Shown here: piece by piece, positions 13,002 to 38,041 of the stretch
Numbering within the stretch: position 1 is the first letter of the stretch
Layout of the letters: each line of letters starts with the position of its first letter
Assembly (NCBI GenBank): GCA_026645735.1
Contig: JAPKMT010000033.1
Location: 1 to 38,094, forward strand
Direction of reading: 5' to 3'
Source: Flexilinea sp.
GTDB taxonomy: Bacteria > Chloroflexota > Anaerolineae > Anaerolineales > Anaerolineaceae
DNA: 38,094 nucleotides
Position numbers and translations under genes: made by a program
Notes under the pieces: model-generated
Told to the model about the DNA's origin: nothing
Database searches by the model: none
What the model saw: only the letters and a program-made list of their open reading frames with translations

Positions 13002-13051
13002 AATTTTGAAGAGAATTTCTGAAATTGTCTGAAATTTTCAAAATGGATTTT

Positions 13052-17835: not shown

Positions 17836-17839
17836 AAAA

Positions 17840-19012: not shown

Positions 19013-19020
19013 GAGCGGAA

Positions 19021-22273: not shown

Positions 22274-22284
22274 CAGGGGACATT

Positions 22285-23467: not shown

Positions 23468-24085
23468 ATGACAAATGAATTGTTTATTCTTGGAGACAGT
23501 ATCTCCATTCATTACACGCCATATCTGCGATCTTTTTTAAGTCCGGATTGGAAAGTGATGCGAAAAGGAGATATTGCTGCACCGGATATTCCTGGAGAAT
23601 TGGACAAAGAGAATGGAACTGACTCAGGCGTTGTTTTGCGCTTCCTGCAAGCTGTTTTATCCCAAATTGCAGCCAAGACCATCCTGTTGAATGCAGGGCT
23701 TCATGATGTGAAACATCAACCGGCAGCCGATAATCCATGTCAAGTATCTTTGCAGCAATATAGTTCCAATCTGAAGAAAATTATTGATCTGGTTGCGGAA
23801 TCAGAAAAAACAATCGTCTGGGTCACTACCACCCCAGTGGACAATGAACAACATCGAAAATTTGAAAAAGACTTTTTTCGCTTCGATCAGGATGTTCTTC
23901 GATACAACCAGGCATCATCAGAAATCATGAAAAGACATGGGATTCAAATCATCGATTTGGGCGGTTTTACAAAAAAACTGGAACCACCGCTGTATCTCGA
24001 TCATGTCCATTTCAATGAAAGAATTCGCGCCTTACAAGCTTCTTTTTTAGCTGGATCTTTATGTATGTTATCTTCAATCAAATAA
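23468..24085 (+). CDS. SGNH/GDSL-family hydrolase, cytoplasmic
   Basis: A 205-residue esterase-type protein with no signal peptide. The nucleophile block GDSIS (Ser11) is at the N-terminus. The oxyanion block appears as LNAGLHDV, with Asn in the position of the usual GxND. The Asp-x-x-His pair is DHVHF near the C-terminus. SGNH enzymes of this size often remove acetyl groups from sugars. Because it should stay inside the cell, its target is likely an imported acetylated sugar or a phosphorylated intermediate. Five bases separate its stop from an alternative start of the next gene. Confidence 0.85.
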   Translation: MTNELFILGDSISIHYTPYLRSFLSPDWKVMRKGDIAAPDIPGELDKENGTDSGVVLRFLQAVLSQIAAKTILLNAGLHDVKHQPAADNPCQVSLQQYSSNLKKIIDLVAESEKTIVWVTTTPVDNEQHRKFEKDFFRFDQDVLRYNQASSEIMKRHGIQIIDLGGFTKKLEPPLYLDHVHFNERIRALQASFLAGSLCMLSSIK

Positions 24086-24101
24086 ACAAATGGTGCTCAG
24101 A

Positions 24102-25253
24102 ATGAATTCAAGAGAACGATTATTAACCACAATGAATTTTCAGGAACCGGATCGAGTCCCGTTCGACTTGGGGAGTACACAAGTAACCGGAATCAATGAA
24201 ATCGCTTATCGCAACCTTCGGAAAGCATATGGGCTGCCGGATAAAGAAGTCGTCTATTCAGACCAAGTCCAGGGACTGGCATTGCCGGATGAAGATTTTC
24301 TTAATCTTATCTGTGCAGATACAAGAGGTCTGTTTCCACTCAATGCTCATAACTGGAATGTTCAGGTCACAGATGGAGGAGATTATTGGCTATACCACGA
24401 TGAATGGGGTATTACCTACCGGAAGCCGAAAACGAATGGTCTATATTTTTCCATTGTTCAGGAACCTCTAAAAAACGAAAAATTGACACCAGACTCCATC
24501 AAAAATTATCAGTGGCCAAATTTTAAAGACCCGGTCCGAATACAGGGTTTCAAAGAGCTTGCAGAAGAATTTCATTCAAAAGGTTTGGCGGTCGTAATAA
24601 AAGATCCATTTGCCGGTATTTTTGAAATGGCACAGCGAATATGCGGCATGGATTATCTACTCATGCTGATGGCAAGCGAACCGGAAATTGCAGGGCTTCT
24701 TTTTGACAAAATGCTGGAACTGAAAATCGATTTTTTCTCATCTGCGCTACCGTCACTAGGAGATTCCATTGATGTGATCGGATTAATGGATGATTATGGT
24801 ACGCAGGTTTCACAGTTGATTTCCCCGCGGATGTTCCGCAATCAAATTAAACCCAGACTAAAAGAGGTATTTAATTGCATTAAAACCTTAGCTCCAAATG
24901 CAAAACGATTTTTCCATTCCTGTGGGAATGTCCGACCATTAATTCCCGATTTTCTGGAAATTGGCGTTCAAATTTTAAATCCAATTCATATCAAAGCAAC
25001 AGGAATGGATCCATCTGAATTGAAGAAAGATTATGGTGACAAAATAGTCTTTTGGGGCGGGGGAATTGATACGCAAGGTATTCTGCCGATGGGGACACCA
25101 CAAGAAGTTCGAGAGGACGTAAAACGGAATCTCGAAGCTTTAATGCCTGGTGGCGGTTATATTTTCAATACGATCCATAACATTCAGGCGGATGTTCCTC
25201 CTGAGAACCTGGTTGCAATGATTGAAACACTACATATCTATGGAGTTTATTAA
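24102..25253 (+). CDS. UroD-fold methyltransferase-like protein 1
   Basis: A 383-residue protein of the uroporphyrinogen decarboxylase/cobalamin methyltransferase superfamily. The entry MNSRERLLTTMNFQEPDRVPFDLG, the zinc-site motif FFHSCGNVRPLIPDF and the ending GGGIDTQ...GGGYIFNTIHNIQADVPPENL fit the corrinoid methyltransferase branch rather than haem-synthesis HemE. There is no nearby haem operon. MNSRER at 24102 is the family-typical start; an ATG 12 bases earlier is possible, and neither has a clear ribosome site. It would transfer a methyl group between an O- or N-methylated compound and a corrinoid protein. First of three consecutive UroD-like genes. Confidence 0.9.
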   Translation: MNSRERLLTTMNFQEPDRVPFDLGSTQVTGINEIAYRNLRKAYGLPDKEVVYSDQVQGLALPDEDFLNLICADTRGLFPLNAHNWNVQVTDGGDYWLYHDEWGITYRKPKTNGLYFSIVQEPLKNEKLTPDSIKNYQWPNFKDPVRIQGFKELAEEFHSKGLAVVIKDPFAGIFEMAQRICGMDYLLMLMASEPEIAGLLFDKMLELKIDFFSSALPSLGDSIDVIGLMDDYGTQVSQLISPRMFRNQIKPRLKEVFNCIKTLAPNAKRFFHSCGNVRPLIPDFLEIGVQILNPIHIKATGMDPSELKKDYGDKIVFWGGGIDTQGILPMGTPQEVREDVKRNLEALMPGGGYIFNTIHNIQADVPPENLVAMIETLHIYGVY

Positions 25254-25257
25254 AGAT

Positions 25258-26328
25258 ATGATACTCACAACAGATCAATTTCTACCTCTAGAATTTATTT
25301 TTAATCCGAATTGGTGGAATAAAACTGCTGGAATCAAGTTTAATGCTCCTTTTTATATGGATGCGGATACCCGTGAAAAAAATGACGTGTTGATGCGGCG
25401 TGTTCTTTATGAAAAATTCGGTTGTTTTGGATTTGGAGAACAAGACCCGCAGCCTCGACCCGTTATCGGTTCTTCTTTTGTAGCAGGGGGATTTATTATT
25501 CCCGCTATGTTGGGAGCAGAAATCCGTTTTTCTGATGCAGAAGCGCCTCAACCGCTGCCTGTTGCTTTGACAAAGCAGGAAATTGAATCCTTTCGACGAC
25601 CCGATTTTCGTAATATGTGGCCGATGTCGGAACTGATCCGGAGCTGGGATGCGCAGGAAAAAAAATACGGGTTTCTGGTTGGAGATTTAAATACCGATGG
25701 TTTGTTGAATGCTGCCTATCATTTTTATGGTGCGGATCTTTTTGCTGATTTATTAGAAGAACCAGACCGTCCCGTCAGATTTATGCAGGAAATTGCAGAT
25801 TTAATTGTAGATACAACCTCTTATATTCAGCGCCGCACCGGAAGTTACTCGATTTCAGTCAATCGAATGGCAGCACATTTGAATCCAACTCCGTTTATTC
25901 ACGCAAATTGTTCTGTTCAAATGATTTCCCCCCGCATTTATTCCCGATGCCAACTTGCGATCGAGCAAAAAATGGCGGAAAAAATTCAGCCGTTTGGAAT
26001 TCATCATTGCGGCGTACAGATGGAACGATACGCAGCAGAATATGTGAAAGTCCCAATAGATTTTTGTGATGTCGGATGGGGTTCGGATCCTTTAAAATGC
26101 CGTGAAGCGCTGCCGGACACCTTTTTAAATTTACGTCTCAGCCCAATCCGCATGCTTCGTAATAATCGGGAAGAAATCATTGCGGATACGGAATACTTAT
26201 TAAATCGTGTCGGGTCTTTAGATCATATTGGAATTTGTTGTATCAATATGGATTATGGCACACCGGAAGAGAATTTGATTGCAGTCTGTAAGGTCGTAGA
26301 AAAATACAGAAAGTCGTCAGGTAAATAA
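25258..26328 (+). CDS. UroD-fold methyltransferase-like protein 2
   Basis: A 356-residue protein of the same superfamily but clearly diverged from its neighbour. The putative zinc motif is FGIHHCGVQMERY, followed by VPIDFCDVGWGSDP. The C-terminus CCINMDYGTPEENL parallels the usual GTPEE-type ending. The ATG at 25258 is the first after the upstream stop, with GGAG 12 bases ahead; an earlier in-frame ATG would overlap that gene. FNPNWWNKTAGIKFNAPFYMDADTR near the N-terminus is distinctive. Close packing (four bases from the previous stop, zero to the next start) suggests co-translation, perhaps of a complex. Confidence 0.82.
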   Translation: MILTTDQFLPLEFIFNPNWWNKTAGIKFNAPFYMDADTREKNDVLMRRVLYEKFGCFGFGEQDPQPRPVIGSSFVAGGFIIPAMLGAEIRFSDAEAPQPLPVALTKQEIESFRRPDFRNMWPMSELIRSWDAQEKKYGFLVGDLNTDGLLNAAYHFYGADLFADLLEEPDRPVRFMQEIADLIVDTTSYIQRRTGSYSISVNRMAAHLNPTPFIHANCSVQMISPRIYSRCQLAIEQKMAEKIQPFGIHHCGVQMERYAAEYVKVPIDFCDVGWGSDPLKCREALPDTFLNLRLSPIRMLRNNREEIIADTEYLLNRVGSLDHIGICCINMDYGTPEENLIAVCKVVEKYRKSSGK

Positions 26329-27372
26329 ATGAATAAACAATGGGAACTCTTTAAAAAAGCAGCAAGAGGGGAAAAAACAGATCAGGTTTTACTGGGATTG
26401 ATCGTTGACAGCCCATGGATCCCGGGATATGCAGGAATTGACACACTGGATTATTATCTTGACGAAAATTTATGGTTCGATGTTAATATGAAGCTGCGTG
26501 ATCGTTTTCCAGAAGCTGTCATGATCCCCGGCTTTTGGTGGGAATATGGCATGGCGATTGAAGCATCTGCATTTGGGGGACATATTCTTTTCCATCATGA
26601 TCAGCCACCTTCTGTCGAACCTTTCAGCACTGATTTGCTGTTCTGGGCGACTCATATTAAGAAACAGAATCCGGAGTCTTCCGGATTTATGCCGCTGGTA
26701 TTAAGGCAAATTGAACGTATGGATCGACGACTTGAACCTTATGGATTAGGACAGCATATCGCCTGCGCCCGTGGAATTCTGACAGTGACTTCCTGGTTCA
26801 TGGGTGTTACAACATTGATGGAATCATTGATTTCCGATCCGGATTCGATCACCCCAATTTTGGAGAAAGTAACCGACACAATTATCGACTGGCTTGATGC
26901 ACAGTTGAAACGAATGCGTGAACCGGATGGCGTCATGGTTTTGGATGATTTGGTTGGAATGATTTCCAAACGACAATATCAGAAAATGGTAGAACCCCAT
27001 TTTAAACGGATTTGGGATCATTTTAAAGGGAAAATTCGAATTTATCATAATGATACGCCTTGTGAGCATCTCTATCCTGTTTTAAAGGATGCCGGTTTTG
27101 ATGTTTTCAATTTTTCTCACAAAGCTGAAATTTCACAAACCAGACAACTGATGGGTGACTGCATTGTTTTATTGGGGAATGTTGCTCCACGAGATCTGGG
27201 AGTTTATGGAACACCGGATCAGGTATATCAGGCCGCGTGGCGTTGCTTGGAACAATCCAAAAATGACGGCAAATTAATTCTTTCTTTTGGCGGTGGCGTA
27301 TCTCCGGATACACCCTCAGAAAATATTGATGCCATGTGCAATGCAGTTAAAGATTGGAATAATCAAAGTTGA
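26329..27372 (+). CDS. UroD-fold methyltransferase-like protein 3
   Basis: A 347-residue third UroD-superfamily protein, starting directly after the previous stop. The metal-site region is IYHNDTPCEHLYPVLKDAGFDVFNFSH: the His and Cys are three residues further apart than in the standard H-x-C-G motif, as in some substrate-binding (MT1-type) methyltransferases. The end is LSFGGGVSPDTPSENIDAM. Three adjacent, mutually diverged paralogues imply different partners or substrates rather than simple duplication. Confidence 0.85.
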   Translation: MNKQWELFKKAARGEKTDQVLLGLIVDSPWIPGYAGIDTLDYYLDENLWFDVNMKLRDRFPEAVMIPGFWWEYGMAIEASAFGGHILFHHDQPPSVEPFSTDLLFWATHIKKQNPESSGFMPLVLRQIERMDRRLEPYGLGQHIACARGILTVTSWFMGVTTLMESLISDPDSITPILEKVTDTIIDWLDAQLKRMREPDGVMVLDDLVGMISKRQYQKMVEPHFKRIWDHFKGKIRIYHNDTPCEHLYPVLKDAGFDVFNFSHKAEISQTRQLMGDCIVLLGNVAPRDLGVYGTPDQVYQAAWRCLEQSKNDGKLILSFGGGVSPDTPSENIDAMCNAVKDWNNQS

Positions 27373-27409
27373 TAAACAGGGAATGGAATTCTTTTTATAA
27401 GAGGACGAG

Positions 27410-28834
27410 ATGATAAAAAAATGGAATTTTCCAGAGGATCGTTTTTTTGATCCGGATGCATCGCAGAAGAAAATTGCAATGGAATTATATGAATCAGTAA
27501 AAGATCTACCCATTGTCAGCCCCCATGGACATGTTGATCCCAAACTGTTTAGCCGAGATTCAAAAGGTTTTGGTACTCCTGCTGATTTATTAATCATTCC
27601 GGATCATTATGTCTTCCGCCTTTTTTATTCTCAAGGACTCCCTCTCGAGGATTTTGGAATTCAACGGAAAGATGGTTCCAAAGAAGGAATCGAACAGGAT
27701 CATCGGAAAATTTGGCAGCGTTTTGCTGACCATTTTTATCTGCTCAGAACAACAGCATCGTACAGCTGGCTGGCATACGAATTTAAAGTGGTTTTGGGAA
27801 TCGAAGAAATTCCTGACACTGAAAATGCTCAGAATATATATGATGAAATACAGGAAAAATTAAATTCGCCCGAATTTAAGCCAAGAAATCTATTCGATCG
27901 ATTTCAGATAGAAGTTTTGAGCACTACGGATGGTGCTGCTGATCCGTTGTCAATCCATCAGGAAATTAAAAATTCCGAATGGAAAGGAAACATCATTCCT
28001 GCTTTCCGTCCAGATGCAGTAATGAATTTGGGCTCACCTGATTTTAAAAAAGAAATTAATCAACTGTCTGGAATCAGCGGAGTAGATATCATTGATTTCA
28101 AATCCTATATTCAAGCGCTTGAATCACGTCGTCGGTTTTTCAAGACAATGGGAGCAGTTTCAACGGATCATGCTGTTGTCAGCCCTTTGACTTCAGAACT
28201 CACCGAGTCAGAGTTGGATAGACTTTTCCAAAAAGCACTGAAAGGCGAATCAACTGAAGCTGATCAGGCTGCATTTTCCGGTCATATGTTGAATGAGATG
28301 GCACGAATGAGCTGTGAAGATGGCATGGTAATGCAGCTTCACTCCGGGGTTTTCAGAAACCACAATCATATGATTTATGATCGATTTGGTGCCGATAAAG
28401 GTTGCGATATTCCGATAACAACAGAATTTACACGCAATTTACAGCCTTTGTTGACGAAATATGGCAATGATCCACGTTTTACCCTGTGTTTATTTACTGT
28501 AGATGAATATACCTATTCACGCGAATTAGCGCCGCTTGCCGGACATTACCCCGCCATCCGTCTCGGACCTCCCTGGTGGTTTAACGATAGTTGGAATGGA
28601 ATGTCGCGCTTTTTTGACTCTGTTACTGAAACTGCCGGATTGTATAATCTGAGCGGATTTATCGATGATACCAGAGCATTTCCCAGTATCCCTGCAAGAC
28701 ATGATGTGTGGAGAAGAGTGGTATCCAACTGGTTGGCAAAAATGGTCGTTCGATCTTTTATCGATATGACTGATGCGTTTGAGTTGGCGAATATGCTCGT
28801 CTATCAACAACCAAAGGCTGTATATAAACTCTGA
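27410..28834 (+). CDS. uxaC: Uronate isomerase UxaC
   Basis: A 474-residue amidohydrolase-fold enzyme that converts D-glucuronate to D-fructuronate and D-galacturonate to D-tagaturonate. The metal HxH is His39/His41 in SPHGHVDP. LHSGVFRNHNH and the late WWFNDSWNGM and GFIDDTRAFPSIPARHDVWRRV are characteristic, and the length is normal. GAGG precedes the ATG. It opens the uronate module, immediately after the three UroD-like genes, and its product would pass to the next enzyme. Confidence 0.95.
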   Translation: MIKKWNFPEDRFFDPDASQKKIAMELYESVKDLPIVSPHGHVDPKLFSRDSKGFGTPADLLIIPDHYVFRLFYSQGLPLEDFGIQRKDGSKEGIEQDHRKIWQRFADHFYLLRTTASYSWLAYEFKVVLGIEEIPDTENAQNIYDEIQEKLNSPEFKPRNLFDRFQIEVLSTTDGAADPLSIHQEIKNSEWKGNIIPAFRPDAVMNLGSPDFKKEINQLSGISGVDIIDFKSYIQALESRRRFFKTMGAVSTDHAVVSPLTSELTESELDRLFQKALKGESTEADQAAFSGHMLNEMARMSCEDGMVMQLHSGVFRNHNHMIYDRFGADKGCDIPITTEFTRNLQPLLTKYGNDPRFTLCLFTVDEYTYSRELAPLAGHYPAIRLGPPWWFNDSWNGMSRFFDSVTETAGLYNLSGFIDDTRAFPSIPARHDVWRRVVSNWLAKMVVRSFIDMTDAFELANMLVYQQPKAVYKL

Positions 28835-28865
28835 TGATTTGCCTGGAAAACGAGAAGGAACAGAT

Positions 28866-30269
28866 ATGACTTATCAAAAAATTGAAAAATCAACCGTATC
28901 TCTTGATGGAACCGATTTATCGTTATGGAAAGACGAAAATGGGGATCGATTTCTAAGTTACTCAGGTAATTCCATGGAACTACGGGATCAAATTAACCCA
29001 GGGATATTCGCACTTTCATCTTCCAATGCAGCATTGTTGCGGGAAAAATTTACTTGGTTAAACCCACAACCGCTTGGATTGCAGACCAGCGCAGGAACTG
29101 GTGATCGGCTTGGCCTGGCAACTTCGGGTCATATTCTGGCCTTTGAAGGATCAGGTATTGCTCCGGTTTTTGCTCAGCAATCTGTGCGAGAGAATATTAG
29201 GACACATCGAACTCCTCAACAAGTGATGGATGATGCCATGTGGGGTATTTTTGAAATGGGATGGAAATTGCCATGGGGTGCTGACGGTGATCATCTAAAA
29301 AATTCAGAAGATATCAAAAGTTTTGTTGATGCCGGTTACACCTTTTTCACAATCGACCCTGGAGCTTATGTCTGCAATGTAGATCCAGAATCCAGTGAAG
29401 CCAAATTAAAAGAATCATTAAAAGAATTTGATTTTGAAGCATTCCAAATTTCACTGGAGTCTTTGCTAATATCCTACAATACAACAAAGATTCCTGTTGA
29501 GAATATTCATTGCAGCGATTATGATGTTTTGACCGCATTGATCAAATACGGTAAAGCGATCCTGCATGTTAAAGAAATGTATTCCGATGTCAGTCAGCGC
29601 ATGGCTTCGAAACCATTTGATTTTGAAGTTTCTGTGGATGAAACTGACTGGCCAACCTCCGTTTTCGAACATTTTTTCATCGCAAATGAGATGAGTCGCC
29701 TTGGAATTCAATGGACATCTCTGGCACCCCGATTTATTGGCAGATTTGAAAAAGGTGTCGATTATATCGGGGAACTATGCCGATTCGAAACTGAGTATAA
29801 AAACCATGCAGCCATCCAAAAATATTTTGGGAATTACAAGATAAGTCTGCACTCTGGCAGTGATAAATTTAGCATTTACCGGATCTGTGCAATTAATAGC
29901 GATTACAAAATCCATCTAAAAACAGCCGGAACGAGCTATCTGGAAGCCCTGCGTGTGCTGGCAGCGACTGAGCCAAAATTATTTCGAGAAATATATGCCT
30001 TCAGCAGAAAACAATATGAAATCGATAAAGTCTCTTATCATGTTTCTGCGGAATTTGCGAAAATGCGGGCACCTGAAGATTTATCAGACGATCAACTGCC
30101 AGATTTGCTGAATGATTTCCACGCCAGACAAGCACTGCATGTTTGTTTTGGCTCGGTTTTAGACCATTTTGGAAAAGAATTTTTAGTGATTCTCAAGAAA
30201 AACAGGGACCTTTATGATGCTCAGATAAAAACTCATTTTGATCGGCATCTGGCAGATTTTATTCATTGA
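28866..30269 (+). CDS. uxaE: Tagaturonate/fructuronate epimerase UxaE
   Basis: A 467-residue protein resembling the Thermotoga UxaE family, which interconverts D-tagaturonate and D-fructuronate by C3/C4-type epimerisation and joins galacturonate and glucuronate breakdown. Seen are HTGKT-like TAGTSYLEALRVLAATEPKLFREI, LHSGSDKFSIY and the N-terminal WGADGDHLKN. The start at 28866 has AGGA eight bases upstream; the open frame extends back over uxaC and that part should be ignored. It lies 31 bases after uxaC. Presence of UxaC, UxaE and a mannonate-forming reductase, but no altronate enzymes, suggests all uronate flows through fructuronate. Confidence 0.88.
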   Translation: MTYQKIEKSTVSLDGTDLSLWKDENGDRFLSYSGNSMELRDQINPGIFALSSSNAALLREKFTWLNPQPLGLQTSAGTGDRLGLATSGHILAFEGSGIAPVFAQQSVRENIRTHRTPQQVMDDAMWGIFEMGWKLPWGADGDHLKNSEDIKSFVDAGYTFFTIDPGAYVCNVDPESSEAKLKESLKEFDFEAFQISLESLLISYNTTKIPVENIHCSDYDVLTALIKYGKAILHVKEMYSDVSQRMASKPFDFEVSVDETDWPTSVFEHFFIANEMSRLGIQWTSLAPRFIGRFEKGVDYIGELCRFETEYKNHAAIQKYFGNYKISLHSGSDKFSIYRICAINSDYKIHLKTAGTSYLEALRVLAATEPKLFREIYAFSRKQYEIDKVSYHVSAEFAKMRAPEDLSDDQLPDLLNDFHARQALHVCFGSVLDHFGKEFLVILKKNRDLYDAQIKTHFDRHLADFIH

Positions 30270-30409
30270 TGGAAAACGGGGTAAAGTCTGACTGAATGTG
30301 ATAATTATTGTTATAACAAGCGAAATAAAAATATCTCGGTTTAACCAAATATATAAGATCGATCTGGGTAAAAAAGAATATTCAAGTAAGAACAAGAAAA
30401 AGGTGAAAA

Positions 30410-31681
30410 ATGGAAGTATCAAAAGCAGTTTTTGGTTATGGGAGTTCGGATTCAGATGCGCTTCTTACAAATCAGGAAGTTTTTGACATTCTGAATGGTG
30501 TTTTTACTGCGAATGATCTTACCGGACAACGTGTATTGGTGGTCATTCCTGACAGTACACGCACGATGCCGCTGCCAGTTTTTTTTCAGTTTTTTGTAAA
30601 ACTTTTACGCGGAAAAGTGGCAAAAATGGATTTCATCATCGCTCTTGGTACGCATCTTCCCATGAGCGATGAAGCTATTTGCCATCATCTTGGAATTTCA
30701 GTAAATGAAATGAACAGCACCTATCAGGATATCCATTTTTTTAATCACGAGTGGAACCAAGAAGAAACATTTATCGATTTGGGTAGATTTGAGGCAGATG
30801 AAATCAGCCGTTTGACATATGGAACAATTCAAAAAGATGTGACCGTTCAAATCAATAAGATTATTCTTGATTATGATCTCCTGATTGTTTGCGGCCCAAT
30901 TTTTCCACATGAAGTCATGGGATTTTCCGGAGGAACCAAATACTTCTTTCCAGGAATCAGCGGTCCTGAGTTTATTAATACAACTCATTGGATCGGGGCC
31001 ATGAACACATGTATTAAAACGATCGGAGTCCGTGATACACCGCAGCGGGATTTGTTGGAGAGAGCTGCATCATGGATACCGGTTCCTCGTTTATATTGTT
31101 GTCCAGTAGTCAAATCAGAAGGCATTTATGGGTTATTTGCCGGCGATCCGTATGAGACCTGGAAAAAAGCGGCGGATCTGTCTGCTGAAGTCCATGTGGA
31201 ATATAAATCAAAAACATTTCACACCGTTCTGTCTGTGATGCCTTATCTGTATGACGATATATGGACTGCAGCCAAAGGAATGTATAAACTGGAAGCTGTC
31301 GTAGAAGACAATGGAGAACTCATTATTTACGCACCGCATATCGATGAGATCAGCTATACGCATGGGAAAATATTGGACAGAATTGGATATCATTGCCGGG
31401 ATTATTTTGTACATCAATGGGAAAAATTCAAAGATGAACCATGGGGTGTTTTGGCTCATTCCACACACCTTACAGGACTAGGAACTTTTGAAAATGGTGT
31501 TGAAAAAAAACGAATTCGAGTGACATTAGCCACACGAATTCCAAAAGGACGCTGCGAAATGCTGGGATTGGGATATATCAATCCATCCGATGTGATACCG
31601 GAATCCTATCAAAACAAGGAAAATGAAGGCATTCTCTTTGTCCCGCACGCAGGAGAAACGCTTTATAAAATTCGACAATGA
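30410..31681 (+). CDS. LarA-family hydroxyacid racemase/epimerase (homologue 2); candidate aldonate C2 epimerase
   Basis: A 423-residue member of the nickel-dependent lactate racemase superfamily, well diverged from the copy at 7885-9141. The key residues remain: His82 in GTHLPM, His167 and Lys177 in PHEVMGFSGGTK, and His193 at the Ni-ligand spacing of +26 from His167. PDSTRTMP matches the substrate-arginine region. The superfamily includes, to my knowledge, a D-gluconate 2-epimerase (GntE), whose reaction links gluconate and mannonate. Its place between uronate epimerase, mannonate-forming reductase and 6-phosphogluconate dehydrogenase makes that activity a good inference. AAGGTG lies just before the ATG. 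Cofactor genes larBCE are absent here. Confidence 0.85.
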   Translation: MEVSKAVFGYGSSDSDALLTNQEVFDILNGVFTANDLTGQRVLVVIPDSTRTMPLPVFFQFFVKLLRGKVAKMDFIIALGTHLPMSDEAICHHLGISVNEMNSTYQDIHFFNHEWNQEETFIDLGRFEADEISRLTYGTIQKDVTVQINKIILDYDLLIVCGPIFPHEVMGFSGGTKYFFPGISGPEFINTTHWIGAMNTCIKTIGVRDTPQRDLLERAASWIPVPRLYCCPVVKSEGIYGLFAGDPYETWKKAADLSAEVHVEYKSKTFHTVLSVMPYLYDDIWTAAKGMYKLEAVVEDNGELIIYAPHIDEISYTHGKILDRIGYHCRDYFVHQWEKFKDEPWGVLAHSTHLTGLGTFENGVEKKRIRVTLATRIPKGRCEMLGLGYINPSDVIPESYQNKENEGILFVPHAGETLYKIRQ

Positions 31682-31732
31682 TCGATTCGATTTTTTGTAC
31701 ATTTCTTTCGAATTATCTAATAAGGAGAAATT

Positions 31733-32551
31733 ATGATACCTGATTTTTGCATTAAAGAGAAAGTAATTGTTGTAACAGGTGGAGCCGGAGCAATATGCGG
31801 TACCATGTGCCGGACATTTGGAGAAGCCGGAGCAAAAGTTGCAGTTCTGGATCTGCGTCAGGATTTTGCTCAAAAAATTGCCGATGAAATTAATGAAAAA
31901 GGGGGTGAAGCGATTGGTGTCGCTTGCAATGTTCTTGAAAAAGACAGCATCGAAGCTGCATCTGAAATCGTTATGCAGCAATGGGGTCGGGTCGACATAT
32001 TGATCAATGGAGCAGGCGGGAACAAACCTCAGGCAACAACCAATCAACAGGTTTCTTTTTTTGATCTTCCGGCCGATGCAATTCAGTGGGTTTTTAATCT
32101 AAATTGTCTCGGAGCAATGCTTCCAAGTCAGGTCTTTGGAAAGATTATGGCAAAAACCGGCGAAGGTTGTATTTTAAATATCTCCAGTATGAATGCATTT
32201 CGCCCGTTAACAAGAATCCCGGCATATAGCGCTGCCAAAGCGGGAATTAATAATTTTACACAGTGGCTGGCAGTAGATATGGCCAAAAATGTCTCACCAA
32301 AAATTCGTGTAAATGCGATCGCTCCCGGATTTTTTATCGGCAATCAAAATCGTGATCTGCTGATCGATAAAGAGACTGGTGGATTAACGGAACGTGGGCA
32401 ATCCATCATCAATCTGACACCGATGAACAGATTCGGCGAGTTTGAAGAACTGATGGGAGCAACTTTATTCCTGATATCGCCCGCTTCAGAATTCATAACA
32501 GGCGTAGTGATTCCGGTAGATGGTGGATTTTCGTCATTTTCCGGTGTTTAA
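31733..32551 (+). CDS. SDR-family fructuronate reductase/D-mannonate oxidoreductase-like
   Basis: A 272-residue short-chain dehydrogenase. It shows TGGAGAICGTM as the nucleotide-binding glycine motif, LDLR after the second strand (favouring NADH through Asp), INGAGGNKPQATT, the catalytic Ser in SSMNAF and YSAAK with Tyr and Lys. NGAGGN-P-ATT is characteristic of the SDR-type D-mannonate oxidoreductases (Bacillus YjmF/UxuB-like), which reduce D-fructuronate to D-mannonate. GGAG precedes the ATG. No mannonate dehydratase follows, so the fate of mannonate is open. Confidence 0.88.
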   Translation: MIPDFCIKEKVIVVTGGAGAICGTMCRTFGEAGAKVAVLDLRQDFAQKIADEINEKGGEAIGVACNVLEKDSIEAASEIVMQQWGRVDILINGAGGNKPQATTNQQVSFFDLPADAIQWVFNLNCLGAMLPSQVFGKIMAKTGEGCILNISSMNAFRPLTRIPAYSAAKAGINNFTQWLAVDMAKNVSPKIRVNAIAPGFFIGNQNRDLLIDKETGGLTERGQSIINLTPMNRFGEFEELMGATLFLISPASEFITGVVIPVDGGFSSFSGV

Positions 32552-32578
32552 AAATTTGACAATTCAGAGGTATTTGCC

Positions 32579-33505
32579 ATGAGTGAAAGCTCAGAACTAA
32601 CAAAAAAATTATTATCTTTGCAACCACAACATAAATTTTTTGTCGGAATTGATTCGGATGGCTGTGTTTACGATGCAATGGAGATTAAACAGAAAGAATG
32701 TTTTTGCCCAAATACGATCCGGGTATGGGAACTGCAGCCAATTTCGAAATATGCAAGAGAAGCGGTGGAATTTGTTAATCTTTATTCGAAATGGCGCGGA
32801 ATTAATCGCTGGCCTGCTTTAATCAAAGTATTTGAACTTCTTAAAGAACGACCGGAAGTAATTCGCAGAAAAGCGTATATCCCAACAGGCGATGATATTC
32901 GTGCTTTTATCGCAAGCGGTTTGCCAACAAGCGATTCGGGTTTAAAAAAATATATGCAAATGCAAAGCAGTCGTGAATTAGATCAGGCGTGGGAATGGAC
33001 TACGTCGGTCAATGAAACGATCAAGAAAATTGTTCATGGATTAATGCCGTTCCCATTTTCAAAAGATAGTATGGAAGCGCTTCAAAATGATGCTGATGTC
33101 TTTTGTGTTTCAGCAACTCCGACCGAAGCATTGGAGCGGGAATGGCAGTCAGGCAGTATTGATCATTTAGTCCGGATGATTTGTGGACAGGAAATAGGAA
33201 CCAAAGAGGATATCCTGCGACATGGTGCGCTTGGCAAGTATGAGCCGAATCATGTCTTGATGATGGGAGATGCTCCCGGTGACCTCAAAGCAGCTCGCGC
33301 GGTGAATGCACTTTTCTTCCCGATCAACCCCGGCCATGAAGAGGAATCCTGGGAACAGTTTTATACAGAAGGATACAAAAAATTTTTAGATGGATCTTTC
33401 CATGGTTCTTATGAAAAGATGTTAATCGATGAATTTGAAAAATTGCTCCCTGAAATTCCACCCTGGAATCTGAAGCAAACTGATGAAAACGGAAAATCAC
33501 ATTGA
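32579..33505 (+). CDS. HAD-superfamily phosphatase-like protein
   Basis: A 308-residue cytoplasmic HAD enzyme. Motif I is GIDSDGCVYDAM (nucleophile and acid Asp), motif II the CVSATPTE stretch and motif IV GDAPGDLKAA. A large helical cap (about residues 40-180) lies between motifs I and II. It probably hydrolyses a phosphorylated sugar or sugar acid, or cleans up a damaged metabolite. Being in the middle of the uronate/gluconate genes it may relate to 6-phosphogluconate or a side product. The substrate cannot be inferred. Confidence 0.8.
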   Translation: MSESSELTKKLLSLQPQHKFFVGIDSDGCVYDAMEIKQKECFCPNTIRVWELQPISKYAREAVEFVNLYSKWRGINRWPALIKVFELLKERPEVIRRKAYIPTGDDIRAFIASGLPTSDSGLKKYMQMQSSRELDQAWEWTTSVNETIKKIVHGLMPFPFSKDSMEALQNDADVFCVSATPTEALEREWQSGSIDHLVRMICGQEIGTKEDILRHGALGKYEPNHVLMMGDAPGDLKAARAVNALFFPINPGHEEESWEQFYTEGYKKFLDGSFHGSYEKMLIDEFEKLLPEIPPWNLKQTDENGKSH

Positions 33506-33537
33506 TTTCGATTGATACGTTGAAAGGAGAGAACACT

Positions 33538-34950
33538 ATGTCTAAGGCAAAAATTGGTCTGATTGGGCTGGGTGTGATGGGTACAAACCTGGCGTTAAAT
33601 ATTGAACGAAATGGTTTTCCAATTGCAGTCTACAATCGGACTTTAGAAAAAACAAAAGAATTCTTAAAAGGTGAAGCCTCCGGCAAACAGGTTTTCGGAG
33701 CTGAAACGATTGAAGAAATGATAGTCATGCTCGAAAAACCGCGCAGAATCATCATGTTGGTAAAAGCAGGCAGCGCAGTTGACGAAACAATTGAACTGGT
33801 TAAACCATTTCTGGAAAAGGGAGATATTTTGATAGATGCCGGAAATTCTTTCTTCCAAGATACGGAAAGAAGAAGTGAATATCTGTCAAAAAGCGGTCTG
33901 AATTTCTTCGGGATGGGAGTCAGCGGCGGAGAAGAAGGAGCTCTTTGGGGGCCCAGCATTATGCCTGGCGGTCAGAAAGATTGTTGGGAAGCGCTACGTC
34001 CCATACTAAAATCGATCGCAGCAAAATATACGGACGGTGAACCTTGTGTCGAATATATTGGACCACGAGGCAGCGGCCACTACGTCAAGATGGTCCACAA
34101 CGGCATTGAATATGGGGATATGCAGTTGATTGCAGAAACGTATGATCTGCTTCACAGAGGTCTCAATCTGCAACAGAATGAACTGCATAAAATTTTCTCA
34201 AAATGGAATCACGGAGTTTTGAAATCATATTTGATCGAGATAACTGAACATATTCTCACGAAATATGATCCGGAAACCGGTAAACCGATGGTAGATATTA
34301 TTCTGGATGAGGCACAGCAAAAGGGAACCGGTAAATGGACAGCGCAGAATGCCCTGGATATCGGAGCTCCTACACCAACTTTAAACAGTGGGGTCGAATG
34401 TCGTATTTTATCATCACTGAAAGAGGAACGTGTTCATGCCAGCGAAATTCTCACAGGACCCAATTCAAAATATGAGGGCAATAAAGAAAAACTGATCAGC
34501 GCAGCAGAAAATTCACTGTATTGTGCAAAAATCGCATCGTATGCGCAGGGATTGGGATTATTGAAGATAGCCAGTAAAGAATACGGCTACGAATTGAATC
34601 TGGGAGAAATTGCAAAGATTTGGCGGGCCGGTTGTATTATTCGGGCTGATTTTCTCAATGATATTACACGGGCATATGAAGTGAATCCGGAATTACAGAA
34701 TTTGATGCTGGACGATTTTTTTCATCAGGCGATTGAATCCCGTCAGTCGGATTGGCGATTTATTGTAAAAACATCCGTTGATCTGGGTATTCCCATGTTA
34801 GCCACTTCCTCAGCATTATCTTATTATGACAGTTACCGAAGCGAAGTTCTTCCTGCAAATCTGACGCAGGCACAGCGAGATTTCTTCGGTGCCCATACGT
34901 ATCGCAGAATTGATAAGGAAGGAAGTTTCCACACCATTTGGGAAAGTTAG
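33538..34950 (+). CDS. gnd: 6-Phosphogluconate dehydrogenase, decarboxylating
   Basis: A 470-residue enzyme converting 6-phosphogluconate to ribulose-5-phosphate, CO2 and NAD(P)H. GLGVMGTN is the nucleotide motif, with YNRT following the second strand. Further signatures are GMGVSGGEEGALWGPSIMPGG, KMVHNGIEYGDMQ with the catalytic Lys, and FFGAHTYRR near the end. The ATG at 33538 has AGGAGA seven bases upstream; the open frame before it overlaps the HAD gene. Full length (470) is typical of the long decarboxylating form. Its presence in a uronate module, where a KDG pathway would be expected, is the main clue that carbon enters as gluconate/6-phosphogluconate. Confidence 0.95.
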   Translation: MSKAKIGLIGLGVMGTNLALNIERNGFPIAVYNRTLEKTKEFLKGEASGKQVFGAETIEEMIVMLEKPRRIIMLVKAGSAVDETIELVKPFLEKGDILIDAGNSFFQDTERRSEYLSKSGLNFFGMGVSGGEEGALWGPSIMPGGQKDCWEALRPILKSIAAKYTDGEPCVEYIGPRGSGHYVKMVHNGIEYGDMQLIAETYDLLHRGLNLQQNELHKIFSKWNHGVLKSYLIEITEHILTKYDPETGKPMVDIILDEAQQKGTGKWTAQNALDIGAPTPTLNSGVECRILSSLKEERVHASEILTGPNSKYEGNKEKLISAAENSLYCAKIASYAQGLGLLKIASKEYGYELNLGEIAKIWRAGCIIRADFLNDITRAYEVNPELQNLMLDDFFHQAIESRQSDWRFIVKTSVDLGIPMLATSSALSYYDSYRSEVLPANLTQAQRDFFGAHTYRRIDKEGSFHTIWES

Positions 34951-34959
34951 GAGTGAATC

Positions 34960-36243
34960 ATGAAAAAGAACGTGATTGTCGCTCAATCAGGGGGGCCAAG
35001 TCCGGTCATCAATAGTACGCTGCGCGGAATCTTTGATTTCTGTCACAGCATGCCGGACATTTTCGGTGATATTTACGCGGGTTTCCACGGGATTGAAGGT
35101 GTCCTGAAAGAGGAATTGATCAATCTCAGTGCACAAAAAGAAGAGGAAATTCAATATTTGAGTGTCACTCCTGCTGCTGGCGGGATCGGAACCTGTCGTT
35201 ATAAATTACGCTCAAGCCAACTTGAAGATTTTAACCGGGTAATTGATGTGTTTAAAGCCCACGACATTGGCTATTTCTTCTATATCGGCGGCAACGATTC
35301 GATGGATACGGCGAACAAAGTCGCCAAGCTGGCAGTAGAAAAAGGACTGGACCTGATTGGCGTGGGCGGTCCCAAGACAATTGATAACGATGTAGGAGAC
35401 AGTGAATTTAAAATTATCGACCATACTCCCGGGTATGGGAGTGTGGCGCGCTATTGGGCACTCAATGTCCAAAATGCAAACGAAGAAAATGAAGGATCAT
35501 ATCCAGCCGATCCGGTTCTCGTCCTACAGGCGATGGGTCGGAAAATCGGATTTATCCCTGCTGCTGCCAGACTCGCCGATCCGAAACGCGAAATGCCGCT
35601 TCAAATTTACTTGACGGAGTCAAAAATCACCCTGCCGGAATTGGCAGATAATGTAAATGATGAACTCCGTAAAAGTAAACGTTGTATTGTTGTTGTATCG
35701 GAAGGTTTTGATGTTGGAGACATCGGTGCCAGAAAGGACAATTTCGGACATGTAGCTTTTGGCGCCAGTCAAATTACAGTAACGCAAGCCGTTGTCAACT
35801 ATCTCAATGAGCATGGTTTGAAAGCTAAGGGTTTAGCGCGTGGTGATACACCTGGCACTGATCAGCGCCGTAATATGATTTATGCTTCTACGGTAGATAT
35901 CGAAGAAGCTTACAAGTTGGGACAAGAGGCGGCTTTAATTGCTTCAAGAGGTGAATCCGGATTTATGAGTACGATTCTAAGAAACGTGGGACCGATTTAT
36001 AGCGTACGCTATGACAAAGTTCCGCTGGATGTAGTTGCAAATTCAGAGCGATTTTTCCCGGAATCCTGGATATCTCCAAACCGGATTGATGTCACTGATG
36101 ACTTTATCAATTATGCCAGACCATTAATTGGAGATAACTGGCCTGCAATTCCTCTGGTGAACGGAATCCAACGGTATGCAAGGATTGAACCGATTTTTGT
36201 TTCTCAGGTTCTCCCAAATTATATTCCCCAGGGCTTGCGGTAA
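34960..36243 (+). CDS. 6-Phosphofructokinase family, pyrophosphate-type
   Basis: A 427-residue phosphofructokinase-fold enzyme. QSGGPSPVIN begins the fold, GGNDSMDTANK has Asp where ATP-dependent enzymes have Gly, and GGPKTIDND has the Lys of pyrophosphate-dependent forms; together these indicate pyrophosphate as donor. RLADPKREMP and the long C-terminus match the larger PPi type. It would act reversibly on fructose-6-phosphate and, in relatives, on sedoheptulose-7-phosphate. Next to 6-phosphogluconate dehydrogenase (nine bases away) it may serve pentose-phosphate recycling. AGGAG precedes the ATG. Confidence 0.92.
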   Translation: MKKNVIVAQSGGPSPVINSTLRGIFDFCHSMPDIFGDIYAGFHGIEGVLKEELINLSAQKEEEIQYLSVTPAAGGIGTCRYKLRSSQLEDFNRVIDVFKAHDIGYFFYIGGNDSMDTANKVAKLAVEKGLDLIGVGGPKTIDNDVGDSEFKIIDHTPGYGSVARYWALNVQNANEENEGSYPADPVLVLQAMGRKIGFIPAAARLADPKREMPLQIYLTESKITLPELADNVNDELRKSKRCIVVVSEGFDVGDIGARKDNFGHVAFGASQITVTQAVVNYLNEHGLKAKGLARGDTPGTDQRRNMIYASTVDIEEAYKLGQEAALIASRGESGFMSTILRNVGPIYSVRYDKVPLDVVANSERFFPESWISPNRIDVTDDFINYARPLIGDNWPAIPLVNGIQRYARIEPIFVSQVLPNYIPQGLR

Positions 36244-36348
36244 GACAAACAGAGGTGTTCTTTCGAAACATGGGTAGCGTCATTTAATAATTTTTCCATA
36301 ATTCGTGAGTCCGCTTATCTTTTCGAATTGATAGATCGGAGTTGAAAA

Positions 36349-37401
36349 TTGACACAAAATATGTTGAAATGGTTGGATGACTTGCGCAGATCACCAGTGA
36401 AAAAGGCAATGCCTGTTTTATCTTTTCCAGCGATTCAATTATTGGGAATCACGGTTTTGGATTTGATTAATGACAGTGATCTTCAGGCAAAAGCCATGAA
36501 AATGATTTCAGAGCGCGTTGATTCTGCGGCATCCCTCAGTTTGATGGATCTTTCCGTAGAAGCGGAATGTTTCGGTTCTGAAATTCGAAAGTCGGATTAC
36601 GAAGTCCCGACTGTGACAGGCAACATTGTTTCCGATATGCAGAGTGCAGAGCAATTACGGATTCCAGAAATTCGTACGGGCAGAACAGGAATTTACATCG
36701 ATGCTGTAAAGAAAGCGAAAAAAATGATTCAGGATCGTCCCGTCTTTGCCGGTATGATCGGTCCATTTTCGCTGTCTGGAAGACTATTGAATGTCACAGA
36801 AATAATGGTTCATTGTTATGATGATCCGGAATTAGTTCATGCAGTCATGAAAAAATCTACTGAATTCTTAATCAACTATGCGAAAGCTTACAAAGAAGCA
36901 GGAGCAGACGGTGTCATTATGGCAGAACCGTTGACTGGCATACTATCTCCGATCCTGGCAAAAAAATTTTCTTCTCCGTATGTAAAAAGAATCGTTGATG
37001 AAATTCAGGATGAGAATTTTCTCGTGATTTATCATAATTGCGGAAACAATACGATTCAGATGATCGATTCGATTCTCTCTACCAAAGCGGCTGCGTTTCA
37101 TTTTGGTAATAGCATCGATATGTCCGTAATGCTTCAAAAAATACCTGAAGACATAATCGTGATGGGAAATATTGATCCCGCAAAAGAAATCAAAGGTGGC
37201 ACTCCAGAATCTGTTCGAAAAGCAACGCTTGAAACATTAGAGAAATGCGCACATCATCCGAATTATGTGATTTCATCAGGATGCGATATCCCTCCGCTCT
37301 CGAAATGGGAAAACATAGATGCGTTCTTCGGAGCCGTTAAAGAGTTTTATGATAAAATCAAGAAAAATGATAATGAATCAACTTTTTTAGAGAAGGAATA
37401 A
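36349..37401 (+). CDS. UroD-fold corrinoid methyltransferase (MtaA/MtbA/MtvB-like), protein 4
   Basis: A 350-residue UroD-superfamily protein. IYHNCGNNT is the zinc-site H-x-C-G motif, preceded by a TIM-barrel with ADGVIMAEPLTGILSP and followed by FHFGNSIDMSVML, VMGNIDPA and YVISSGCDIPPLSKWENIDAF. These are typical of MtaA/MtbA-type cobalamin methyltransferases and their bacterial O-demethylase relatives. The likely start is TTG at 36349, because GGAG lies seven bases before it, whereas the next ATG (36361) is 19 bases away. It is four bases ahead of the corrinoid protein gene, its probable partner. Confidence 0.9.
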   Translation: MTQNMLKWLDDLRRSPVKKAMPVLSFPAIQLLGITVLDLINDSDLQAKAMKMISERVDSAASLSLMDLSVEAECFGSEIRKSDYEVPTVTGNIVSDMQSAEQLRIPEIRTGRTGIYIDAVKKAKKMIQDRPVFAGMIGPFSLSGRLLNVTEIMVHCYDDPELVHAVMKKSTEFLINYAKAYKEAGADGVIMAEPLTGILSPILAKKFSSPYVKRIVDEIQDENFLVIYHNCGNNTIQMIDSILSTKAAAFHFGNSIDMSVMLQKIPEDIIVMGNIDPAKEIKGGTPESVRKATLETLEKCAHHPNYVISSGCDIPPLSKWENIDAFFGAVKEFYDKIKKNDNESTFLEKE

Positions 37402-37405
37402 TCGC

Positions 37406-38041
37406 ATGGCAGATCTACTTAATGAAATTAAAGAAGCCGTAATTGACGGTTTGCAGAAAGTTGTTCCTGGAAAAGTTCAGACAGCTTTGGATGCTGGAAT
37501 TGATCCTGAAACCATCTTAAATGAAGCAATGATTAAAGGGATGGCAGAAGTTGGTCAATTATTTGAAGATGGGGAATTCTTTGTTCCGGAAATGCTGGTT
37601 GCCGCGCGGGCGATGGCTTCCGGAATGGAAATCCTGAAACCGCGATTAATTCAGGCGGATGTAAAATCTGCCGGGAAAGTGATTATTGGAACAGTACAGG
37701 GAGACCTGCACGATATCGGAAAAAATTTAGTCGGGATGATGCTGGAAGGAGCAGCATTCGAAGTCGTTGACTTAGGAGCTGATGTTTCTCCCGAAAAATT
37801 TGTGGAAGCAGTGAAAGAAAATGGTGCTCAGATTGTTGCGATGTCCGCATTGTTAACCACCACCATGCCAAGTATGAAGACGACAATTGAAGCGTTGGAA
37901 ACAGCCGGTCTGCGAGATAGAGTGAAGGTTATGGTTGGAGGCGCTCCCCTTTCCGATCAATATGCAAAAGAAATTCGAGCAGATGGTTACTCGCCAGATG
38001 CAAATCGGGCAGTTGCATTAGCAAAATCACTCATTCTCTGA
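37406..38041 (+). CDS. Corrinoid (B12-binding) methyl-carrier protein
   Basis: A 211-residue two-domain protein. The N-terminal helical cap (about residues 1-88) contains the family motif LFEDGEFFVPEMLVAARAM. The C-terminal Rossmann-like domain has GDLHDIGKN (Asp100, His102, Gly105), where His102 is the lower cobalt ligand. MSALLTTTM and VMVGGAPLS are the other cobalamin-loop motifs. It carries the methyl group between methyltransferases and is normally reactivated by a RACo protein when oxidised. It is coupled to the fourth UroD-like gene. The operon may continue beyond the window; the last 50 bases contain only a possible short stem (GTAGCA/TGCTAC). Confidence 0.96.
   Translation: MADLLNEIKEAVIDGLQKVVPGKVQTALDAGIDPETILNEAMIKGMAEVGQLFEDGEFFVPEMLVAARAMASGMEILKPRLIQADVKSAGKVIIGTVQGDLHDIGKNLVGMMLEGAAFEVVDLGADVSPEKFVEAVKENGAQIVAMSALLTTTMPSMKTTIEALETAGLRDRVKVMVGGAPLSDQYAKEIRADGYSPDANRAVALAKSLIL

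Follow-up and report, generated by a model that had tools for sequence, protein, structure and literature searches.

What a corrinoid methyl-transfer system might be doing among genes for the breakdown of sugar acids and amino sugars is the question raised by this contig of Flexilinea sp., a congener of Flexilinea flocculi. The window analysed here is the whole contig, 38,094 nucleotides in length. Analysis of open reading frames (ORFs) and Pfam domains confirmed the initial annotation in that four UroD-fold genes (UroD-A to UroD-D) and one corrinoid protein gene lie amid uronate and amino-sugar genes, with the gene for a corrinoid reductive activase (RACo) at 9804-11645 (Table 1). According to the ORF list, 23 genes, all on the forward strand, span 13025-38041 as one same-strand run with intergene gaps of -100 to 254 bases, where the extent of overlap varies with the choice of start codon. 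Since the contig ends 53 bases 3' of the corrinoid gene, the run may extend further. The importer, annotated at first as being of the sugar type, is indeed present, but its class is different: SBP_bac_5 together with OppBCDF indicates an oligopeptide/oligosaccharide transporter and not a classical sugar ABC transporter.

No forward-strand terminator-like site was found within any gap of the run. On both strands together, 21 such sites are located between 20900 and 38094 (14.6 in shuffled sequences, sd 3.8) and 10 between 9000 and 21000 (10.3 in shuffled sequences). At the Rfam gathering thresholds the single match in the window is a tRNA (5586-5657), and the window therefore contains no cobalamin riboswitch of known type. 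A perfect 16-base palindrome at 12863-12878 was examined as an operator for the LacI-family regulator; with 4 matches (up to 3 mismatches) vs. 2.2 in shuffled sequences, it is not a clear candidate. No gene of the run was recognised as a glycoside hydrolase.

Table 1 Features of the corrinoid and sugar-catabolic gene run and the separately encoded activase (bits are model scores)
Feature	Position	Strand	Evidence
RACo corrinoid reductive activase (Fer2 and RACo domains)	9804..11645	+	RACo_C_ter 281.5 bits
LacI-family regulator	13025..14080	+	Pfam
Cupin 1	14132..14599	+	Pfam
SBP_bac_5 solute-binding protein of importer	14669..16597	+	Pfam
OppBCDF permeases and ATPases (four genes)	16852..21086	+	Pfam
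NagA-like amidohydrolase	20987..22273	+	219.9 bits (nagA cut-off 225.65)
Cupin 2	22270..22635	+	Cupin_2 26.6 bits, under cut-off of 27.2
NagB-like isomerase/deaminase	22649..23434	+	Below NCBIfam nagB cut-offs
GDSL/SGNH hydrolase	23468..24085	+	Pfam
UroD-A	24090..25253	+	Pfam PF01208 81.6 bits
UroD-B	25222..26328	+	Pfam PF01208 28.6 bits (cut-off 23.9)
UroD-C	26329..27372	+	Pfam PF01208 131.7 bits
UxaC, glucuronate isomerase family	27410..28834	+	Pfam 269.8 bits
UxaE, tagaturonate epimerase	28773..30269	+	Pfam 473.1 bits
LarA-like nickel enzyme	30410..31681	+	Nearest to a putative hexonate epimerase model
SDR, D-mannonate oxidoreductase subfamily	31733..32551	+	PRK08277 382.5 bits (cut-off 281)
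HAD-like protein	32579..33505	+	21.9 bits, under cut-off of 23.8
6-phosphogluconate dehydrogenase (6PGDH)	33502..34950	+	Pfam
Phosphofructokinase (PFK) family	34960..36243	+	Pfam
UroD-D	36349..37401	+	Pfam PF01208 193.1 bits
Stand-alone corrinoid methyl-carrier protein	37406..38041	+	B12-binding 99.5 bits, B12-binding_2 78.6 bits

The nearest solved structures to the UroD-A and UroD-B models in a fold search were those of MtaA (4ay7/4ay8), a likeness of fold only; the predicted structure of UroD-B has a pLDDT of 94.3. UroD-D is closest to the MtaA/MtbA-type models and 4ay7. The cut-off of the MtaA/CmuA family TIGR01463 (235.4 bits) was not reached by UroD-D (146.1), UroD-C (88.7) or UroD-A (63.8), and UroD-B, a member of a UroD-fold family spread over many phylum names, had no match to it at an E value of 1e-10, nor to any NCBIfam model at the threshold used. 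Conserved residues in UroD-B are Cys230, His261-His262-Cys263 and Cys340 (alignment A4, 46 of 66 full-length UroD-B ORFs plus the window). Cys230 is present in 81 of 81 sequences and Cys340 in 74 of the 79 rows with letters at that position; the HHCG motif is likewise found in 81 of 81, partly by construction, as it was one of the two locus search patterns, which the two other cysteines were not. The conserved positions are His276, Cys/Asp278 and His363 in UroD-A (A5, 26 of 31 sequences plus the window) and His240 and Asp242 in UroD-C (A6, 19 of 21 plus the window), where glycines 321-323 replace the Cys of the MtaA chain in alignment with 4ay7. UroD-D has His229, Cys231 and Cys312. The His-Cys-Cys set is thus found in UroD-B and UroD-D and is absent from UroD-A, with its Cys or Asp, and from UroD-C, which has Asp and is missing the third Cys.

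The corrinoid protein, with a DLHDIG motif at residue 100 and a match to 1y80 at 2.7e-63, is the sole stand-alone example detected in the genome; a second B12-domain match, on contig C55, was judged by eye to be a MerR-like regulator. RACo is encoded 12.4 kb upstream of UroD-A. The genome thus holds three parts of a corrinoid demethylase system: UroD-fold protein, stand-alone corrinoid protein and RACo. No acceptor methyltransferase is encoded within the window. In the genome as a whole (92% complete) there is no match to a stand-alone homocysteine S-methyltransferase (PF02574), and Pterin_bind is confined to MetH and one protein on C9 (matches on C9 and C21 only). The best of five LarA models listed for the LarA-like gene is NF052594 (nickel-dependent putative hexonate epimerase), with 169.1 bits, under its curated cut-off of 500.

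Among 14 genomes of the genus, the corrinoid protein, UroD-B and RACo are all present in eight and all absent from six, and the gene content of the run recurs in eight, by ORF calls that were incomplete for GC-rich loci. G000, G001 and G010 each have a contig that holds both UroD-B and the corrinoid gene, whereas the corrinoid gene of G002, G009 and G011 is accompanied by all or part of the genes from UxaC/UxaE to PFK. A MetH tree covering 12 of the 14 genomes (all but G003 and G009) implies two changes for the presence pattern; the decisive row, G004, sits on a long branch with its placement flagged as unsure. UroD-D does not adjoin the corrinoid gene in four of the eight genomes, and a core role for it in the system is not supported. 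Of the readable genomes of the genus, only that of F. flocculi has a PF02574 homocysteine S-methyltransferase gene directly after the corrinoid gene. The corresponding place is taken by an EamA transporter in G008 and by an ORF on the opposite strand in G001, G002, G009 and G011; in G003 a PF02574 ORF lies on the corrinoid contig with other ORFs between. RACo may serve other systems too, because in G001 it lies less than 500 bases from another corrinoid-protein match (35% identity).

In a wider survey we kept 80 of 156 confirmed UroD-B loci, in which genes were labelled by their top BLAST hit among the proteins of the window or of the loci instead of by model scores. A corrinoid gene is near UroD-B in 11 of these, vs. 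0.7 expected under a Poisson model that ignores kinship; ten of the 11 are on the UroD-B strand and six within 400 bases, with varying gene order. Together with the recurrence of gene content and order in the genus, this enrichment argues for more than chance grouping. The corrinoid gene, UroD-B and UxaC are found on one contig outside the genus in L082, L086, L090 and L093. The 47 closest loci contain UroD-A in 30 cases, UxaC or UxaE in 24, NagA or NagB in 27 and sulfatases in seven, 21 of the 33 more distant ones are without any sugar label used, and the long Anaerolineae loci L098, L104, L105, L107, L110 and L118 have sugar genes without a corrinoid gene. In L134 a single run reads NagA-NagB-UroD-A-UroD-B-corrinoid-Pterin_bind-RACo-like, and L147 and L154 combine Opp, UroDs, UroD-B, a regulator, corrinoid, MTHFR and Etf genes in that order, L154 with Pterin_bind as well. 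One genome carries both L140 (UroDs, Opp, UxaC and UxaE) and L193, which by BLAST label reads RACo-Pterin_bind-Etf-MTHFR-corrinoid. A corrinoid-protein match occurs somewhere in 47 of 50 UroD-B genomes searched (50 of the 80 loci, L080 being G001 again; of the other 30, eight are in genus genomes and 22 were omitted by choice), compared with 58 of 91 relatives from the order that lack UroD-B in a Fisher comparison that ignores kinship, spans differing taxa and scores six MetH-only genus members as lacking the protein.

From the co-distribution in the genus, the UroD-B loci with a corrinoid gene, the run in L134 and the neighbour in F. flocculi, we consider a tie between corrinoid methyl transfer and sugar-acid/amino-sugar catabolism to be well supported. 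This much of the corrinoid demethylation of methylated sugars envisaged in the initial annotation stands. As for the donor, O-methyl ethers of those sugar acids and amino sugars are the likeliest, and the run probably serves to import a methylated uronate/amino-sugar saccharide that is demethylated by corrinoid chemistry. The particular donor suggested at the outset, 4-O-methylglucuronate released from xylan, is highly improbable. The UxaC of the run would accept the resulting glucuronate, but UxaE indicates galacturonate as much as glucuronate, and GH67 and GH115 had no match in the 14 genus genomes, most of which are drafts. Since the amino-sugar genes of the run and the sulfatases in relatives suggest another polymer, one containing amino sugars, the xylan example is further weakened; free 4-O-methylglucuronate supplied by other species is a possible donor. 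GH4, tried as the missing glycosidase, was without a match in G000, G001, G009 and G010.

Methylated sulfur or selenium compounds are unlikely donors, even though the His-Cys-Cys set of UroD-B and UroD-D is the one tied to such methyltransferases in PMC10418091 and UroD-D most resembles MtaA/MtbA-type proteins. The set is missing from UroD-A and UroD-C, RACo is not beside the UroD genes, UroD-D is often away from the corrinoid gene, and the genes that recur nearby are those for uronates, amino sugars and transport. As a selenium trait, selD is uninformative: it is above cut-off in this genome and in 11 of the 14 genus genomes, but its frequency hardly differs between carriers (6 of 8) and non-carriers (5 of 6). 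A comparably low probability is given to a split methionine synthase, in which the corrinoid protein and RACo would be fed by methyl-tetrahydrofolate, with the UroD proteins performing non-corrinoid sugar chemistry and only loosely linked. Such split enzymes are described in PMC12478193, and in its favour are the PF02574 neighbour in F. flocculi and the Anaerolineaceae stretches L210, L214 and L217, which pair corrinoid, PF02574-type (model-tested on L210) and RACo genes without UroD-B. However, PF02574 matches are present in all 14 genus genomes, carriers or not, and in 11 of the genomes within a frame of MetH length (795-822 residues), so that a second methionine synthase is not needed; with the corrinoid protein, UroD-B and RACo in only eight, membership of the MetH system was rejected as the sole explanation of the corrinoid gene. 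Against a split synthase also speak the lack of a separate Pterin_bind partner in this genome, the six loci of differing order that keep the corrinoid gene close to UroD-B, and L134 and L154, in which UroD-B and the corrinoid protein are combined with a Pterin_bind protein.

Returning to corrinoid demethylation of methylated sugars, what the data establish directly is the identity of the gene families, their order, recurrence and co-distribution, the UroD fold and the conservation of metal-site residues; the reactions, donor, acceptor and division of labour among the UroD proteins that we infer would be as follows. The Opp importer would take up a methylated saccharide holding a uronate and an amino sugar, and UroD-A, UroD-B and UroD-C would form the substrate side (methyltransferase 1), aligning the sugar methyl ether with Co(I) in the corrinoid protein, to which the methyl group would move. 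RACo, encoded apart, would re-reduce any corrinoid that had slipped to Co(II). The neighbours in relatives suggest homocysteine or tetrahydrofolate as the acceptor: methyl-Co(III) may pass its methyl group to homocysteine by way of a PF02574 enzyme (as beside the corrinoid gene of F. flocculi), MetH or UroD-D, with tetrahydrofolate as the recipient in other hosts. Once demethylated, the uronate would proceed through UxaC/UxaE and the mannonate oxidoreductase to the LarA-like epimerase, giving gluconate for the route to 6PGDH, and NagA-like, NagB-like and PFK enzymes would process the amino sugar.

The methoxyaromatic O-demethylases (MtvB, OdmB/VdmB, MtoB) and the CdmBCA chloromethane system have in common with the Flexilinea genes a UroD-superfamily methyltransferase, a small corrinoid protein and a reductive activase, to which the relatives L134, L154 and L193 add a Pterin_bind acceptor enzyme. 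In contrast to those systems, three or four divergent UroD families are embedded here in a carbohydrate run, and the acceptor may be homocysteine. Type 1 mlp clusters, according to PMC10418091, consist of at least two Mlps, a corrinoid protein and a Ram protein in one direction and no more than 2 kb apart, with zinc ligands His-Cys-Cys that are invariable except in several Mlp1 and are linked to sulfur or selenium substrates. The present genome resembles this arrangement in having several MtaA-like proteins together with a corrinoid protein and RACo, and in the absence of a tetrahydrofolate methylase within 20 kb, as far as the contig reaches, whereas RACo ends at 11645 and the nearest UroD starts at 24090, two of the four UroD proteins depart from the ligand set, the neighbours are sugar genes and UroD-B is outside the NCBIfam models. 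UxaC, UxaE, the mannonate oxidoreductase and a putative LarA-family hexonate epimerase resemble the Thermotoga-type uronate route with UxaE and GntE (cf. PMC7583248), but here the same run also holds UroD, corrinoid and amino-sugar genes. PMC12478193 describes a split methionine synthase that operates alongside glycine betaine demethylation, with one corrinoid protein serving both demethylase and homocysteine methyltransferase; the donor-side enzyme there is of pfam06253, here of the UroD family.

More broadly, and tentatively, with the chances slightly against it, there may be a dedicated anaerobic pathway in which one corrinoid protein works with three divergent enzymes of the UroD fold to demethylate polysaccharide-derived sugar acids or amino sugars, widespread in Anaerolineae and present in related versions among Atribacterota and further phyla. 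If true, it would be to carbohydrates what methoxyaromatic demethylation is to aromatics. Plant, algal and microbial polysaccharides often contain methylated sugars, and a route for removal of sugar methyl ethers is the oxygen-dependent one by cytochrome P450 acting on porphyran. Among the open-licence PubMed Central matches listed, none was devoted by title to the demethylation of sugars by corrinoid enzymes, and no anaerobic route of this kind emerged from them. As the run recurs in a genus of which a member is in culture, anaerobic sugar demethylation becomes testable. The run could offer a role for UroD families so far without assignment, and would connect the degradation of glycans with methionine or one-carbon metabolism in bacteria of sludge and sediment.

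The host genome comprises 3.35 Mb in 86 contigs, and the window is one complete contig of 38,094 bases. It carries a run of 23 genes with intergenic gaps of -100 to 254 bases, and 53 bases separate the end of the corrinoid protein gene from the contig end. The gene families and their order given in the initial annotation were correct by Pfam and NCBIfam, except that the importer described there as sugar-type is of the Opp class (SBP_bac_5 and OppBCDF) and not a classical sugar transporter. Inverted repeat arms of 118 bases (83% complementary) lie on either side of the gene for RACo (corrinoid reductive activase). Each contains a palindromic hairpin, and they look like paired MITE-like elements. 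Upstream of the LacI gene there are two palindromes that resemble each other, one of them perfect across 16 bases, which may be an operator of the LacI-family regulator.

Features of the gene run and its surroundings
Feature	Position	Strand	Basis
Inverted repeat arms	9569-9686 and 11716-11833		
RACo	9804-11645		
Palindromes upstream of LacI gene	12840-12889		
Whole run, 23 genes	13025-38041	+	
First part, in order: LacI, cupin, SBP_bac_5, OppBCDF, NagA-like amidohydrolase, cupin, NagB-like, GDSL		+	Pfam, NCBIfam
Second part, in order: UroD-A, UroD-B, UroD-C, UxaC, UxaE, LarA-like		+	Pfam, NCBIfam
Last part, in order: SDR (D-mannonate oxidoreductase subfamily), HAD-like, 6PGDH, PFK, UroD-D, corrinoid protein		+	Pfam, NCBIfam
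Genes of the suggested gluconate route (LarA-like, mannonate oxidoreductase, 6PGDH)	30410-36243		

Flexilinea is a genus of the Anaerolineaceae, and 8 of its 14 analyzed genomes (G-handles) encode the corrinoid protein (75-100% identity), the same eight that have UroD-B and RACo. The other six have a MetH-type protein as their best corrinoid match, with frames of 796-822 residues in five of them; in G007 the frame has 359 residues and lies on the same contig as that genome's PF02574 match. On a MetH tree of 12 rows (six carriers, six non-carriers) two changes are needed to explain the pattern, since G004, a single contig that is 99% complete and lacks the corrinoid protein, UroD-B and RACo, nests with G001, G002 and G011 at 98/96, on a long branch whose placement the tree program flags as unsure. 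The order RACo to corrinoid gene is the same in F. flocculi as in the window, and the corrinoid gene lies directly after UxaE in G001, after UxaE also in G009, and after PFK in G002 and G011. UroD-B and the corrinoid gene share a contig only in G000, G001 and F. flocculi, with contig breaks elsewhere. UroD-D adjoins the corrinoid gene in G000, G003, G008 and F. flocculi and not in G001, G002, G009 and G011, so the core seems to consist of UroD-A, -B and -C and the corrinoid protein, with UroD-D as an extra. In G001 RACo lies less than 500 bases from a second, distant corrinoid-protein match of 35% identity (region G001:C3:16411-19255), which speaks against RACo being closely bound to this system; G001 may have another corrinoid system that shares the activase.

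Scanning genome contigs with the UroD-B alignment yielded 156 confirmed relatives, and the 80 kept for analysis carry record names such as Chloroflexi, Acidobacteria, Atribacteria, Clostridia and Planctomycetes. The 47 loci with at least 50% UroD-B identity include UroD-A in 30, NagA or NagB in 27, UxaC or UxaE in 24, UroD-C in 20, a sulfatase in 7 and a corrinoid gene in 6; five of the remaining 33 have a corrinoid gene and 21 have none of the sugar labels. Corrinoid genes at 11 of the 80 loci (10 on the UroD-B strand, 6 within 400 bases) compare with 0.7 expected in 1.12 Mb from their density in 50 UroD-B genomes (Poisson 3e-10, kinship ignored). At relatives' loci L082, L086, L090 and L093 the corrinoid gene is on the same contig as UroD-B and UxaC, and at L076 it is placed between Opp genes and NagB, UroD-A and UxaC. 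A corrinoid-protein match (E 1e-30 or better) occurs anywhere in the genome in 47 of the 50 UroD-B genomes vs. 58 of 91 order relatives without UroD-B, which is indicative only, as the taxa differ. Recurrence in the genus and enrichment around UroD-B support the proposal that corrinoid methyl transfer is tied to this sugar gene run, a link we regard as well supported.

Five UroD-B loci (L119, L123, L124, L131 and L152) have MalF/MalG-type transporters in the same stretch, together with conserved proteins of ~388 and ~357 residues that gave no Pfam match in L131, and some add amidohydrolase-like, AAT-like and SIS or NagA genes. In other Anaerolineaceae (L219, L213 and L223), a corrinoid gene and genes with a UroD-like label (24-39% identity) occur near MalF/MalG-type transporters, with RACo also present in L219; here corrinoid and sugar-type transport genes are paired independently.

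The structure models of UroD-B (pLDDT 94.3) and UroD-A (85.0) have as nearest solved structures MtaA (4ay7/4ay8), followed by uroporphyrinogen decarboxylases. In the UroD-B alignment (47 rows) Cys230, His261, His262 and Cys263 are invariant and Cys340 is found in 46. In UroD-D, His229, Cys231 and Cys312 align with HxC and GC segments in MtaA 4ay7; in MtaA these residues bind zinc. UroD-A has His276 and His363 in 27 of 27 rows, with Cys (20) or Asp (7) at position 278, and UroD-C has His240 and Asp242 in 20 of 20, with glycines at the third-Cys position. PMC10418091 makes the case that S/Se substrates are favoured by a His-Cys-Cys set and that O-methyltransferases carry carboxylate or non-coordinating replacements; on this criterion the sites of UroD-B and -D resemble the thiol type, and those of UroD-C and some UroD-A proteins the oxygen type. 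The pattern calls for caution in regarding UroD-B as the O-demethylase, and the sugar-side enzyme could instead be UroD-A or -C.

Gene context makes an O-methyl sugar the likely donor. The example put forward in the initial annotation, 4-O-methylglucuronate from xylan, is unlikely in that form: GH67 and GH115 gave no match in the 14 genus genomes, and relatives' loci add SGSH-like sulfatases, GlcNAc 2-epimerase-like and Gfo/Idh-like proteins and aldo/keto reductases. These additions suggest that the polymer, instead of being xylan, is sulfated and made up of uronic acid and amino sugar. The SDR scores over the mannonate oxidoreductase cut-off, and the LarA-like protein is nearest to a putative hexonate epimerase model, under that model's cut-off. 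The LarA-like, SDR and 6PGDH genes suggest a route from uronates through gluconate to ribulose 5-phosphate, in which UxaC, UxaE, SDR, LarA-like and 6PGDH would lead from uronate via fructuronate, mannonate and gluconate to 6-phosphogluconate; no gluconate kinase was identified here. PMC7583248 demonstrates that LarA groups 19 and 20 epimerise mannonate to gluconate, and proposes hexonate epimerisation for group 18. An amino-sugar branch would run via NagA-like, NagB-like and PFK.

A B12-binding_2 search of this genome returned three proteins (the window corrinoid protein, MetH and, by reading, one MerR-like regulator), and a Pterin_bind search two matches, one in MetH and one on contig C9, taken as dihydropteroate synthase. 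These results point to a single stand-alone corrinoid carrier; no separate enzyme for transfer to tetrahydrofolate was found, as far as Pterin_bind would detect one. Extra UroD-like genes lie on other contigs (L013 7738-10027, L004 and L007) despite only one stand-alone corrinoid protein being found, and one on C19 has 45% identity to UroD-A.

The methyl acceptor may differ among hosts. In L134 (Chloroflexi) NagA, NagB, UroD-A, UroD-B and the corrinoid protein are encoded in a single run along with a Pterin_bind protein and a RACo-like one (31% identity). In L147 and L154, MTHFR (identified by Pfam on L147) and Etf genes (EtfA by Pfam on L154, EtfB by eye) come after the corrinoid gene, and in L154 so does a Pterin_bind protein. 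L193 has a group of genes labelled by BLAST as RACo, Pterin_bind, Etf, MTHFR and corrinoid protein, in the same genome as L140 with its UroDs, Opp genes, UxaC and UxaE. In these hosts tetrahydrofolate very likely receives the methyl group. A stand-alone PF02574 homocysteine S-methyltransferase directly follows the corrinoid gene in F. flocculi, and corrinoid, PF02574-type and RACo genes occur together in other Anaerolineaceae (L210, L214 and L217; Pfam confirmed on L210), so homocysteine is our best guess, and no more, for the acceptor here. In this genome PF02574 was found in MetH only, with no stand-alone gene; in G008 an EamA transporter follows the corrinoid gene and the stand-alone PF02574 gene is on a different contig, in G003 other ORFs intervene on the shared contig, and in G001, G002, G009 and G011 the next ORF has the opposite direction. 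A corrinoid protein common to a demethylase and methionine synthesis has precedent in PMC12478193.

Among the matches listed in open-licence literature there was no report of corrinoid-dependent demethylation of sugars. The parts and logic match those of known corrinoid demethylases, which makes this system a variant of that kind.
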